A program made the position numbers and the translations under genes. This document shows, in pieces, positions 14,367-19,607 of a stretch of 33,730 nucleotides of DNA. The notes beneath the pieces are model-generated. The model saw nothing but the letters and a program-made list of their open reading frames with translations, made no database searches and had not been told where the DNA came from. The stretch is from Nitrosomonas sp. (lineage in GTDB: Bacteria > Pseudomonadota > Gammaproteobacteria > Burkholderiales > Nitrosomonadaceae). The stretch spans positions 1-33,730 of the forward strand of contig JAJFJJ010000049.1 of assembly GCA_021774195.1 (NCBI GenBank), given 5' to 3'. Each line of letters opens with the position of its first letter. Position 1 is the first letter of the stretch.

Positions 14367-14534
14367 GCGGCTAATTCTATCTTGAAAAGCCGAATAATTT
14401 AAATAAGATTTGTAAGAAAAATCGCTTTCGCCAAAAAAATATCAGTATAAGAAATTGATGGCTTTGTTATTTCGAACGTTATTGGTTAAAGATAAAATGA
14501 TTAGAAGGGAATTTGGAAGAAAATAGAAAAGGTA

Positions 14535-14572
14535 AGTAAAAGGGCTACCTAAGTTCAGGTAGCCCTTTTACT
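14535..14572 (-). terminator. Rho-independent terminator of the multicopper oxidase operon
   Basis: A perfect 16-bp stem (14535-14550 with 14557-14572, core AAAGGGCTACCT) with a 6-base loop starts directly after the stop codon of the large multicopper oxidase gene. On the minus strand it is followed by a T-rich tract (CCTTTTCTATTTTC). Confidence 0.9.
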
Positions 14573-17329
14573 TTATGGTACTGGGTTAAGCTGTGCTGGC
14601 GTTAATCCCCAATCACTACCTAAGTTTTGTACCCACCCATTGTATACATTTGGTACAGCATAGATACCTTGACCTCCGGTACCAGCTAAGCTAACAACGG
14701 CATCATCCGTCGGAACATTTCCGTCAGCGACCAATGCAATCCGGCCAGCAATAGAAGAGTTAGCTGGATTGTTTATATCAACGTCAACAATTATTAACTG
14801 ATTAGAAAACTTGCTGGTGACATAAGCATAGTAACCACCGCCAGCTTTGGCGCCAAAGTTCACACCGTGACAGCCTGGATCGCAAGGTAACATTTTGACC
14901 ACTTGATCAAGTTGTGTGTCAATAATTGTAATTGTTCCGCCTGTATTCGCCGTTACAACAACTCGACCTGTTGGATCAACAGGTGTTTGGATCGGAAAGA
15001 CACCAAGTGTAACCAAACCATCACCATCTTTATCGGTTGCGGTTGTATCACCTGTCGGATTGACTGGATCGTAGTCAGCAATCAGATTGATCTTTTTGAT
15101 GGGTGTACCATCTATACCGATAACATTTATTGAGTGATCCAATAGATTGGAAACATAGAATTTATCTATACCCATTCCGATGGCGATAGGATGTGGTCCA
15201 TGAGGGAAATTTCCACCAGCAGCTGGTCTACCAACAATTGCGCCAGTACTGTTATCATAGATCCCAGCATCACCGGTATTGATATTCGGCGTTACAATAG
15301 TTCCATCTGGTGTGACCCAATGACCATGTGGCATTGCAGGGATTTGGCCTGGTAACTGAGTCCGTGTCATAGATTGCGCCTCAGTTGCACCTGCCGGGAA
15401 TCTTACAATACCATTCTCACCATTGATGGCAACAGTCACTTCGTCAGTTCCAGGTATGGTCATAACATGTGAAGGAGAATCCCCGACTTGGATATTATTA
15501 ATTAAAGCGCCTGTTTCACGATCAATTGTAGTCAGTTTGTTATCAAACCACTGGGTTTGATAAATAACAGATTGATCAGCATTACTCCAAATATTATGTG
15601 GATGATTCATGTTGATCGCTGGCAAAGCTATCTTGCGTTTGATGGTCCAATTTGTTGCATCCAAAACGGTAATCGTTCCAGGCTTGGTTTTGCCAGCAGT
15701 TTTTTCAAATTGGGTATCAATCCATACTTCACCGATACCCGGTGTAGCTGGATTAAATAAGCCTTCTAATGCAATGTCTTGACCATAACGGCTTTCCAAT
15801 ACGTCTCTCAACGGCACCCCTTCAACAAGATTTCCATCAAGATCACCAATTGCGACATCTACATTTGGATAGCTCGCATGCCATGGTTTGGAAGAGGTGT
15901 AGTCTTGCCAATTTTCTTGTGTCGTTGCAACAAAGAATGTTCTTAATAAACGTGTTGCAAGATCACTGATTGTCGGTAGATCATTAATACCCGTTACAAT
16001 ATCAATTTTTGTGCCTAAATCGAAACCTGCGGTATTTGGGTCATCAATAATAACCGCACCAAACATATAAGGGTGAACTTTACAGGTAAAGACATAGAGT
16101 CCTGGTGTGTCAAGTTTAACGATACCACCACCCCTATATGCTTTCGATTGATCAAAAGGCATCATATGCGGATCACCTAAAACAGGATCGTTAGCATCAC
16201 TAGGCCATAGCAGTGATGTAACCGTATGTACTGCATTGGTGTCTGACATAATGAAATGAACCGTGGTTCCTGGTGGTCCAATTTCGAGTGAAGGCGAAAT
16301 AGTTGCATGCTTGATTTGATCGCTACGTATACTTCTAAAAAATTGACCTGGCTCATCAGATATTTCAAAAGTGACTAGACCAGGTTCGCCTGCAACAACG
16401 TTCGGCCAGATCTGTCCATTTGGAGAAGCACCAGCAATACTGTTTCCTAACTCGCCTGAATTTGGGTCAACCACATGAAATTTGCCCGCCATACCTGATT
16501 CCATGTGAGAAATTAGATGACAGTGATATTGCCAGAAACCAGTTCCAACACCTGTGCCAGATTTGATCGTAAAGGCATGGGTATCGAATGGTTGAGCTAA
16601 GAGTTTCGCATCAATAATGCTGGGCTCAACACCTTGAGCGACAAAATCAGTTTCATCAGGCCAACGATGAGCGTGTAAGTGGAATGTATGGTCAGGTCCA
16701 ATCGCCAGGATATGGAAACGGACAATATCATCTAGAACAGCGCCCAGTGTTGGGTTGGTCCATAATGGTGTTTGCGTGCCATTACTTATTTCGGTGCCCC
16801 AAAATGTTGAGCCGACCATGAACATAACGAAATCTTTTTTCAGCTCTGATTTATTTACGGCTGTGATAGTTCCATCACCATCAATATAGCTTTGCACTGT
16901 TCCATCAGTATTTTCAACGATGAGTGCGCCAAATAACCCGGTTAGATGGGAACCTAGATCACCATATGGGTGTGTACCAGCCACAGTAGCTGTAAATTGG
17001 GTACTGGTACTGTTTCCCGGCGCTAACTGGGCATCAATCATTGGCGCAAGTGCTGGTATCAATAAGCCAACATCCAGTGGTGTATTGTTGGTTAATTCAA
17101 CATTAATGACATCACCCTGTTTTACAAAGATTGTAGGGCCAGGTATGGTCGCTCCATCAGGGTAATTCTGAGTACTGCCATCACTACTCGTATGGCTAAT
17201 CATTTGATAAGCCGGCTGCCCATTGGGTAATAATTCAGCTGACATAACAATATTATGCGTAGCAGCAAGTGCAATATGGGGCACAAGAAAAGCTACTATA
17301 AATAACTTAATTGCTAAGATCGTTTTCAT
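14573..17329 (-). CDS. Large multicopper oxidase-like subunit: degenerate domain 1, catalytic domain 2, cupredoxin, beta-propeller
   Basis: A secreted 918-aa protein (signal peptide MKTILAIKLFIVAFLVPHIALA). Domain 1 (about 23-130) has the laccase fold but lacks both HxH motifs, with DVG and GDL in their places. Domain 2 (about 150-295) keeps the motifs of two-domain small laccases with the same spacing: His214-TF-His217-L-His219, then His269-Cys270-His271-LIS-His275-MESG-Met280. These are type 1, 2 and 3 copper ligands. Domain 3 (about 320-430) is an amicyanin-like cupredoxin with His368, Cys416, His419 and Met422 (CKVHPYM). From about 520 to 905 it is a YVTN-type beta-propeller with Pro-His motifs at blade starts. 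The frame is open to an ATG at 17368, but the ATG at 17327-17329 has GAGAGA before it and gives a normal signal peptide. It follows the small subunit gene in one operon. Substrate unknown. Confidence 0.85.
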   Translation of the reverse strand: MKTILAIKLFIVAFLVPHIALAATHNIVMSAELLPNGQPAYQMISHTSSDGSTQNYPDGATIPGPTIFVKQGDVINVELTNNTPLDVGLLIPALAPMIDAQLAPGNSTSTQFTATVAGTHPYGDLGSHLTGLFGALIVENTDGTVQSYIDGDGTITAVNKSELKKDFVMFMVGSTFWGTEISNGTQTPLWTNPTLGAVLDDIVRFHILAIGPDHTFHLHAHRWPDETDFVAQGVEPSIIDAKLLAQPFDTHAFTIKSGTGVGTGFWQYHCHLISHMESGMAGKFHVVDPNSGELGNSIAGASPNGQIWPNVVAGEPGLVTFEISDEPGQFFRSIRSDQIKHATISPSLEIGPPGTTVHFIMSDTNAVHTVTSLLWPSDANDPVLGDPHMMPFDQSKAYRGGGIVKLDTPGLYVFTCKVHPYMFGAVIIDDPNTAGFDLGTKIDIVTGINDLPTISDLATRLLRTFFVATTQENWQDYTSSKPWHASYPNVDVAIGDLDGNLVEGVPLRDVLESRYGQDIALEGLFNPATPGIGEVWIDTQFEKTAGKTKPGTITVLDATNWTIKRKIALPAINMNHPHNIWSNADQSVIYQTQWFDNKLTTIDRETGALINNIQVGDSPSHVMTIPGTDEVTVAINGENGIVRFPAGATEAQSMTRTQLPGQIPAMPHGHWVTPDGTIVTPNINTGDAGIYDNSTGAIVGRPAAGGNFPHGPHPIAIGMGIDKFYVSNLLDHSINVIGIDGTPIKKINLIADYDPVNPTGDTTATDKDGDGLVTLGVFPIQTPVDPTGRVVVTANTGGTITIIDTQLDQVVKMLPCDPGCHGVNFGAKAGGGYYAYVTSKFSNQLIIVDVDINNPANSSIAGRIALVADGNVPTDDAVVSLAGTGGQGIYAVPNVYNGWVQNLGSDWGLTPAQLNPVP

Positions 17330-17391
17330 ATTTATTCTCTCACTCAATTTACTAAAATTCATATTCATCCTCTTATTTAAATGCTGAGGTT

Positions 17392-18360
17392 TTATGGATT
17401 AACTAGAAAGCTACCTTGCATTCCTAATAACCGACTTGAAAAGGCCGTATCCGTGTATGTTGAATCTTCTGAGGCATTAACAGTAAACACAAGTTTTTCA
17501 ATTGGTCCCAGTGCTTTGCTGTTAACCATATTTTGAGTGCCTGGTTCTGGCCATAAATAGTTTGGCAGGGTAAATTGATGAATATTTGTTCCTAAAGCAA
17601 TGAGGTGAAATCTGACGTTGGTGTTTTCTTGTGCGGTCAAAGTCGGATTAACACCAGCGGGTGTATGTAGGCTTGTTTCATTATCAATTTCAGTTCCCAC
17701 AAAAGCATCATCAAAGATATACAGTACGTAATCTTTCATCACACTATCCAGTGAAACTGATTGACGTGTACCGCCACTGTTTACATCTACAATATTGGAT
17801 GCCGGATTAACAATTACGGCGCCATACAAACCTCTATCTTCTGCGCCATTATGAGTCAACAAATTGTGATCATGATAAGGCCAGGTACCAGCAGTCCCAG
17901 GTGCCGCAACCCAGCGATATTCATAAGACATTGCAGGTGTAGCACTTTCATCCATCAAAAAGTTAATGTATTCGAGTGTGCCGTCACTGATGATATCGTA
18001 ATGAACGCCATGAACATGAACACTAACATGCTCTTCCGCAGATGAATTTGTGTCGAAAGCATGAATCAACTTAAGGGTAACTTCATCACCTTCAGTAATA
18101 ACAATAGTTGGTCCTGGGATGGTTGGAGTATTAGGGTATCTGCTAGTAATATCTGTCGCGTTACCACCATCCAAATCGGAAACCGTATATTGCCGCATAC
18201 CATAAGCAAAATAACCACCGTCAAATTTTTCTGCCACCAACTCTATCGTGTGCAGCTTGCCGCTCTCAGCTTGCTGTGCATAGCTATTTACACTAATAAA
18301 GCAAAAAAACAGTGCGAAAATACAGCTTGACAGTACAGCGCTACTTGATCTGTATTGCAT
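17392..18360 (-). CDS. Small multicopper oxidase-like subunit with catalytic domain 1 only
   Basis: A secreted 322-aa protein (signal peptide through about NSYA-QQ) with the two-domain small-laccase architecture. Domain 1 keeps both trinuclear-site motifs: His115-V-His117-GVHYD and WPYHDHNLLTH (His163, His165). The following GLYGAVIVN is also conserved. Domain 2 has the fold, but IHQFTLPNYLW replaces the HxxHxH motif, and TYTDTAFSSRLLGM replaces HCHxxxHxxxxM, so it cannot hold type 1 copper or its half of the trinuclear site. Alone it should not be an oxidase. It is the first gene of the operon, 62 bases (or 23, with the upstream ATG) before the large protein, which has exactly the missing motifs. 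A joint complex in the periplasm is the simplest reading. Confidence 0.87.
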   Translation of the reverse strand: MQYRSSSAVLSSCIFALFFCFISVNSYAQQAESGKLHTIELVAEKFDGGYFAYGMRQYTVSDLDGGNATDITSRYPNTPTIPGPTIVITEGDEVTLKLIHAFDTNSSAEEHVSVHVHGVHYDIISDGTLEYINFLMDESATPAMSYEYRWVAAPGTAGTWPYHDHNLLTHNGAEDRGLYGAVIVNPASNIVDVNSGGTRQSVSLDSVMKDYVLYIFDDAFVGTEIDNETSLHTPAGVNPTLTAQENTNVRFHLIALGTNIHQFTLPNYLWPEPGTQNMVNSKALGPIEKLVFTVNASEDSTYTDTAFSSRLLGMQGSFLVNP

Positions 18361-18398: not shown

Positions 18399-18429
18399 CG
18401 AGCGGTGCGACAAATTGTCGCACCGCTCG
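18399..18429. promoter_or_regulatory. Strong 15-bp palindrome in the leader of the multicopper oxidase operon
   Basis: CGAGCGGTGCGACAA and its exact reverse complement are separated by one base. The site begins 38 bases upstream of the small subunit start codon. On the minus strand the hairpin is followed by GGATTTTGTT, so it could act as an attenuator or as the terminator of something upstream. It could also be an operator for a dimeric regulator. Confidence 0.65.
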
Positions 18430-19079: not shown

Positions 19080-19607
19080 TTATTGAGAATTCTTTACGAA
19101 ATCAACTAATCTTTGGTAAGTAAACAAGTAGTCCTGTCCTTTCAGCGGAGTATGACACTGAACACAATTTAAGTCATTATCTTTTACGGTCCCATCAGGA
19201 TTATAAACTGCAAACCCCCAATCGCCAGTACGATTTTCAGCCGGAAAACTGGCATCCCATTCATCTTGTTTCTCCATCACAGCAACAGCGGCCAGTGCAT
19301 CAATTTCAAATAACCCATCATCACCTGCAACCGGTTTGCCGTCGGCATCTGTCTTGGTACTGTATATTTCCATCACCACAACAGAACCTGATGCACCACT
19401 TTCACCTTGTGTATAGCCTGAAATTGTAGCTTCATTGGCATATAACTTGGCGACCTGAGTCTGATTGGCACGATTGGCTGTCGCGTATTTAGTAAAAGAT
19501 TCTTCATAGCCCACCGGGAATTTGACATGTTCCGGGTCGCCACCACTGAAAGCAGTCAATGGTGTGAATGCAATAATTGCAGCAACTGTGGTTAACGCAT
19601 ATTTCAT
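19080..19607 (-). CDS. Cytochrome P460-family protein (secreted c-type haem)
   Basis: A 175-aa exported protein (signal peptide MKYALTTVAAIIAFTPLTAF) of the cytochrome P460 / cytochrome c'-beta family. One haem-binding motif CVQCH is at residues 148-152 near the C-terminus, preceded by the family segment GDWGFAVYNPDG. True P460 of ammonia oxidisers oxidises hydroxylamine and has a lysine cross-linked to the haem. Lys54, Lys85 and Lys91 are the central lysines here, and I cannot tell by eye whether one occupies that position. It could therefore be P460 or the non-cross-linked c'-beta type, which binds NO. AAGGAG precedes the ATG, and the DUF6164 gene is 14 bases upstream in the same operon. 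Confidence 0.85.
   Translation of the reverse strand: MKYALTTVAAIIAFTPLTAFSGGDPEHVKFPVGYEESFTKYATANRANQTQVAKLYANEATISGYTQGESGASGSVVVMEIYSTKTDADGKPVAGDDGLFEIDALAAVAVMEKQDEWDASFPAENRTGDWGFAVYNPDGTVKDNDLNCVQCHTPLKGQDYLFTYQRLVDFVKNSQ

Follow-up and report, generated by a model that had tools for sequence, protein, structure and literature searches.

A pair of adjacent genes on a 33,730-nucleotide stretch of Nitrosomonas sp. DNA (GenBank assembly GCA_021774195.1, contig JAJFJJ010000049.1; "the window" refers to this whole stretch) very probably encodes the two subunits of one exported enzyme, a type-B two-domain multicopper oxidase resembling the small laccase SLAC of Streptomyces. The enzyme would be an obligate heteromer with its trinuclear copper site at the subunit interface. 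The smaller protein, S, and the larger, B, lack opposite halves of the copper ligand set, and a shared active site appears well supported by comparative evidence. Both genes lie head to tail on the minus strand, S then B, with B beginning 23 bases past the S stop codon:

17392..18360, minus strand: S, proposed small subunit, two-domain laccase-type, 322 residues (open reading frame; PF07732, 44.3 bits; SLAC matches in the PDB; ligand tables)
18010..18018, minus strand: HVH motif of S (H115, H117), by motif position; His in 65/65 and 11/11 S
17866..17874, minus strand: HDH motif of S (H163, H165), by motif position; His in 65/65 and 11/11 S
14573..17368, minus strand: B, proposed large subunit, 931 residues (open reading frame), a laccase copy with a dead domain 1, a cupredoxin domain and a seven-bladed beta-propeller
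16454..17281, minus strand: laccase-like domains 1 and 2 of B, about residues 30-305 (SLAC alignment over residues 72-304, E 1.3e-19; ligand tables)
16673..16690, minus strand: HTFHLH motif of B (H227, H230, H232); His in 64/64 and 10/10 B
16490..16525, minus strand: HCHxxxHxxxxM motif of B (H282, C283, H284, H288, M293); all five in 64/64 and 10/10 B
16019..16417, minus strand: third cupredoxin domain of B, about residues 318-450, with type-1-like ligands H381, C429, H432 and M435 (alignment, pseudoazurin matches, confident model)
14609..15751, minus strand: seven-bladed propeller of B, about residues 540-920, with conserved H591, H634, H681, H683 and H834

Division of the copper ligands

Ligands were counted in 65 S (open frames of at least 320 residues) and 64 B (at least 890 residues), drawn from the window together with the genus loci after removal of copies that were shorter or frame-shifted. 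A further set of 11 S and 10 B came from named assemblies not called Nitrosomonas, namely Nitrosospira, Nitrosovibrio, a Nitrosomonadales metagenome-assembled genome (MAG), and MAGs labelled Chromatiales, Pseudomonadales and Nitrospirae. S has H115, H117, H163 and H165 and is devoid of the domain-2 trinuclear set; all four domain-1 His are kept in 76/76 copies. B has H227, H230, H232, H282, C283, H284, H288 and M293 and is devoid of the domain-1 set, the first His of HDH being retained in 41/64 copies; all eight domain-2 ligands are kept in 74/74. A complete trinuclear and type-1 set occurs in no single chain (0/76 S, 0/74 B), while the pair combined has the full set. The split is identical in all S and B counted, which rules out chance or a misread frame as its source. 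The initial annotation of the window had assigned only domain-1 motifs to the small protein and only domain-2 motifs to the large one, and had noted that together they hold every ligand. The ligand tables confirm each of these statements, and the observation is stronger than was claimed at the time (its numbering of B starts at Met14, while ours follows the 931-residue open reading frame).

Type-1 copper ligands in domain 2 are the defining trait of type-B two-domain oxidases. Such ligands are present in domain 2 of B (H227, C283, H288, M293) in 74/74 copies, S is without a Cys at the site, and two cupredoxin domains stand in the SLAC arrangement, as in a type-B enzyme. The available text of one SLAC study (PMC3918160) gives the trinuclear ligands as H102, H104, H156, H158, H234, H236, H287 and H289, and the type-1 ligands as H231, C288 and H293, with M298 close to these. 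According to the same text, exchanging any one of these His or Cys dramatically reduces activity and M298A lowers it by about 35%, and a role in O2 reduction is mentioned for Tyr108. Its equivalent in S, Y121, is conserved in 64/65 copies of the first set and 11/11 of the second, and B does not have it.

In Pfam, S matches Cu-oxidase_3 alone, while B matches Cu-oxidase_3 and Cu-oxidase_2 above cut-offs, both within its front third. Two-domain laccases head the PDB sequence matches of both proteins (best E 2.9e-16 for S and 1.3e-19 for the front of B), and the N-terminus of S is, by eye, signal-like. The type-1-like ligands of the third domain of B (H381, C429, H432, M435) are invariant in 54/54 alignment rows; this domain has pseudoazurin matches and was modelled confidently in a structure prediction of the cupredoxin-propeller part. 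The propeller has seven blades and five conserved histidines, and B as a whole looks like a laccase copy fused to a cupredoxin-propeller gene.

Conservation was compared by domain over 56 loci (1540 comparisons, ligand columns excluded). Domain 2 of B scored 0.692 versus 0.578 for its domain 1, a difference which fits a shared site; domain 1 of S scored 0.663 versus 0.629 for its domain 2, a small difference.

At the place of the type-1 site in domain 2 of S (H261, D304, M314), the His is kept in 64/65 and the Met in 62/65 genus copies, an Asp replaces the Cys in 62/65, and the second His is gone. Outside the genus, His and Asp are each found in 5/11 and Met in 11/11. This residual pattern might hold another metal.

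Co-occurrence of the two genes

A family search with S and with the front half of B (125 genomes, E up to 1e-30; the two genome lists were compared by reading) placed S in 72 genomes and B in 71, all 71 shared. S was not found in the other 53, and no genome had B without S at this limit. In an order search (200 genomes, E up to 1e-10), S and B each matched the same four, all of the genus and the window's own included. S lies directly upstream of B on one strand in 69 pairs passing the length filters. A scan of relatives, in which species genomes were searched with an S alignment and the best 80 of 98 relatives kept, yielded 79 loci; 63 of these are split S, 60 of them with a B bearing the domain-2 motif alongside. 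The initial annotation had named regular occurrence of either protein without the other as evidence against a shared site, and no such pattern emerged, one MAG with a truncated B excepted.

Orphan S copies were considered as counter-examples and rejected. In L226 the sequence enters a stretch of N, L174 ends at a contig end, and L201 lies near one, with a B on another contig of what is presumably the same genome (G229, L113 and L114).

These counts also bear on whether S or B completes its site with some other multicopper oxidase of the cell. The window's genome does contain four further proteins with PF07732 matches, but the three of them that were examined all look complete by motif. Moreover, the matched family genomes, 11 of them from two other genera, have one to three S matches each (E up to 1e-30); the matches that were read, those in the genus, are the S loci. 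S and B also travel together in genomes and operon. We therefore regard a partner other than the neighbouring gene as extremely improbable.

Some genomes carry two S-B pairs, either apart or in tandem; the tandem arrangement is seen in two genomes (L086, L087), and one genome, G275, has three pairs (L095, L104, L125). S from the MAGs labelled Chromatiales, Nitrospirae and Pseudomonadales (L173, L174, L178; B in two of the three) nests among Nitrosomonas rows, a placement which may reflect either transfer or misbinning.

An undivided form and the history of the split

The remaining 16 of the 79 loci encode a complete form, in which a single chain carries the tyrosine as well as all twelve ligands (16/16). 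Most are from methanotrophs (Methylomicrobium, Methyloglobulus, Methylocystis, Methylocystaceae, Methylothermaceae, Methylohalobius), with further examples in four MAGs that have no label finer than Gammaproteobacteria and in two labelled Nitrosopumilus or Nitrosopumilaceae. In 13/16 the complete laccase has next to it, downstream in the loci displayed, a cupredoxin-propeller gene that shows homology to the last two thirds of B; its products are 45-48% identical to the B of the window in five methanotroph alignment rows. On a Methylocystis rosea plasmid (L237) the same order appears as an annotated multicopper oxidase followed by a hypothetical protein. The methanotroph pair (L220 Methylomicrobium, L231 and L237 Methylocystis, L216 Methyloglobulus) is homologous to S and B in every domain and in the same order; unlike S and B, it has one laccase chain with all twelve ligands and a separate propeller protein. 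Among the entries listed by one literature search aimed at methanotroph two-domain oxidases, no description of this pair appeared.

Trees were built from selected rows, with 26 S and 26 B and then with 26 S, 26 B and 17 complete rows. S forms one clade (Shimodaira-Hasegawa-like approximate likelihood ratio test, SH-aLRT, 99), as does B (99 to 100), and 15 complete rows, with the Nitrosopumilus-labelled ones left out, form another (99). Much the same groups recur, by eye, within the S and B clades, so the split would either have arisen once, before the genera of ammonia-oxidizing bacteria (AOB) parted, or have moved between them as a unit. In the free tree S joins the methanotroph forms at support 75, and the tree of 26 S and 26 B carries a long-branch warning (B with the Streptomyces outgroup).

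Gene order and homology suggest how the split may have come about. In the ancestral pair, a cupredoxin-propeller gene would have come after a gene for a complete two-domain laccase, an order still seen in methanotrophs. In the AOB lineage the laccase would have been duplicated, and one copy would have become the front part of a fusion with the cupredoxin-propeller gene. Each copy would also have given up the half of the active site that the other retained. We infer this history, of duplication, fusion and complementary loss, as the simplest one.

Two of the complete laccases (L219 and L224, in the MAGs labelled Nitrosopumilus/Nitrosopumilaceae) have no propeller gene in the fetched flanks. Two genus genomes contain cupredoxin-propeller paralogues without a laccase front (L152 4240-6078, L153 4166-5974), which are 52% and 50% identical, respectively, to the back of B. 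On the L237 plasmid, a sigma-70 family factor gene lies upstream of the pair and an NnrS-family gene within approximately 6 kb downstream.

Weighing a shared site

In SLAC, neighbouring subunits build each trinuclear cluster together, one contributing its domain 1 and the other its domain 2, so domain 1 of S and domain 2 of B would form the cluster here. That SLAC trinuclear clusters lie at the subunit interface is described in the available text of PMC3192119. Domain 1 of S would supply four His and the oxygen-reduction tyrosine, Y121, while domain 2 of B would supply four His and the type-1 copper site. A reductant bound at the propeller or close to it may donate electrons to the type-1-like copper of the third B domain, from where they would move to the domain-2 type-1 copper of B and onward to the shared cluster, where O2 would be reduced. 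Neither S alone nor B alone would be expected to show oxidase activity.

In a covariation analysis of the two proteins, pairs joining domain 1 of S and domain 2 of B make up 20 of the top 50 (11 expected) and 35 of the top 100 (22.5 expected), an excess equalled in 1/25 (top 50) and 10/25 (top 100) draws when rows are re-paired within two clades. In a fused model of an orthologue, the S half has the SLAC fold and its best structure matches are two-domain laccases.

Several results limit the case for a shared site, or for the pairing and history it presumes. Firstly, re-pairing within seven clades equals the covariation excess in 13/25 (top 50) and 18/25 (top 100) draws. Secondly, the AlphaFold model of the read-through S plus the first three B domains (orthologue, 14 rows) reached a mean predicted local distance difference test (pLDDT) of 63.6 and a predicted template modelling score (pTM) of 0.56; its ten-residue ligand-motif blocks have mean pLDDT of 45-61 and its third domain lies below 50, and the docking of S to B is not settled by it. 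A deeper alignment of 118 rows, in which S-only rows had been placed on the B half as judged from their identities, was set aside. Thirdly, one MAG (G203, L091) has S together with a B that is cut, starting at about residue 273 on its contig, and another genome, G264, keeps a B remnant with two stops (E 5.6e-29) with S gone. Lastly, a tree in which S and B are constrained as one clade has an approximately unbiased test value (p-AU) of 0.57, and the sister relation of the two is not decided by the trees. The interpretation given in the initial annotation, an obligate heteromeric oxidase, is thus upheld in part: complementary loss is conserved across the AOB family, while a physical complex is not established by the fused model.

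The same results lend themselves to a reading with separate sites, in which B, with its propeller and two type-1 coppers, would serve to carry electrons, and S would be a subunit that is structural or binds copper, its four His holding the metal in another way. Unsettled docking and a covariation excess matched by clade-wise re-pairing are compatible with it, as is the residual type-1 pattern in domain 2 of S, perhaps a metal site of its own. Yet S keeps all four trinuclear His in every counted copy and the tyrosine in all but one, and B keeps exactly the four matching trinuclear His plus the type-1 set, which would be needless for an electron carrier. We consider separate sites very unlikely and prefer a site shared between S and B.

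How the subunits of such a shared-site enzyme assemble is a further question. A strictly alternating 2+2 or 3+3 ring, as drawn in the initial annotation, would give every domain 1 of S a domain 2 of B as partner, with none wasted. Such a ring cannot have three members, yet known two-domain laccases are described as trimers in the available texts of PMC3918160 and PMC3192119, and we think strict alternation unlikely. Strict alternation calls for an even subunit count, and a trimer of 2:1 or 1:2 composition, holding one complete site, may be the more natural guess.

Relation to known enzymes

S and B share fold and ligand motifs with Streptomyces SLAC (PDB 3cg8/3tas). SLAC, however, is a homotrimer in which each chain bears the full ligand set, whereas here the set is divided over two genes, one of them fused to a cupredoxin domain and a propeller. 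Heterodimeric fungal laccases (NLAC, POXA3 and relatives) likewise combine a multicopper oxidase with a small second subunit. All copper ligands of these fungal enzymes reside in the catalytic chain. Their small subunit is described, in the available text of PMC10741624, as stabilising a catalytic laccase chain; S differs in being itself a two-domain laccase relative, carrying four of the eight trinuclear ligands.

Residues 361-445 of B match residues 363-444 of the copper nitrite reductase PDB 6hbe (E 1.5e-5), one cupredoxin region of which thus resembles the third domain of B; we take this region of 6hbe to be a tethered electron-donor domain. In the nitrite reductase NirK, the type-1 site is in domain 1, whereas the Cys of B is in domain 2 and S has none at the site. 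Nitrous oxide reductase has a CuA cupredoxin domain with two Cys after its propeller, whereas the cupredoxin domain of B precedes the propeller and has the ligands H381, C429, H432 and M435. A literature search gave no clarification of PDB 9cck, a nitrite reductase whose entry lists chains of two different lengths. Among the literature searched (mostly non-subscription, top-ranked entries), we found no description of the S/B pair or of a multicopper oxidase with ligands split over two genes.

Should the pair work as proposed, it would represent a natural case of a homomeric enzyme turned into an obligate two-gene enzyme through opposite half-site losses, and the survival of the undivided form in relatives would make the evolutionary steps testable. 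Nitrifiers and methanotrophs, in whose copper and nitric oxide (NO) chemistry some steps are open, would also gain a copper oxidase that brings an electron relay of its own.

Possible substrates and gene neighbourhood

NO, hydroxylamine and copper(I) are guesses at the substrate. The first two would make the pair a candidate for the NO-oxidizing step of ammonia oxidizers; the available text of PMC6478695 treats the NO oxidoreductase of AOB as yet to be identified, with nitrosocyanin the leading candidate. The distribution suits such a role, as the split pair is seen in AOB, along with a few MAGs bearing odd labels, and methanotrophs account for most complete forms, all expected bearers of a copper membrane monooxygenase. 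PF02461 was found in 18 of the 31 genomes tested (covering 31 of the 79 loci) and in 10/11 named isolates, the misses being twelve MAGs and one isolate. The NnrS-family gene about 6 kb from the complete form on the Methylocystis plasmid points in the same direction. However, copper(I) or another reductant matches the distribution equally, and since 53 of the 125 family genomes are without the pair at the limit used, it is not the universal NO-oxidizing step. NO or hydroxylamine as the physiological reductant is, in our estimation, distinctly unlikely.

A fuller picture would comprise an exported relay with four metal sites (the shared cluster, two type-1 coppers and a His-lined propeller site), made an obligate heteromer by duplication and loss and oxidising nitrogen species or copper(I) in ammonia oxidizers, with the undivided enzyme doing the same job in methanotrophs. 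Taken in all its parts, this picture is doubtful.

The host of the window is itself an ammonia oxidizer, as judged by an AMO/pMMO-type gene (PF02461, E 3.4e-120). Across the flanks of the 79 loci, no neighbouring gene points to a substrate. A LuxR/NarL-type regulator-like gene was noted by eye in 32 loci; in 31 of these it shares the strand of S and its end is no more than 800 nt from the S frame; in the methanotroph loci displayed, other genes occupy the regulator position upstream. DUF6164 is found in 4 of the flanks and pyrD in 13. In the window, a cytochrome P460 gene (PF16694, 87.7 bits) lies at 19080-19607 on the same strand, approximately 700 bases upstream of S; a search of the flanks of all 79 loci gave no P460 relative (0/79), and P460 is not a conserved neighbour.

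Two hairpins flank the genes. Just 5' of S, at 18399-18429, is a 31-nt hairpin whose stem has 14 perfect pairs. As only two others among the 69 S loci scanned have an arm as long, with differing sequences, it is no conserved element. The second directly follows B:

14534..14573, minus strand: terminator-like hairpin, 18 pairs, directly after B; three such sites in the region versus 3.9 expected from shuffles

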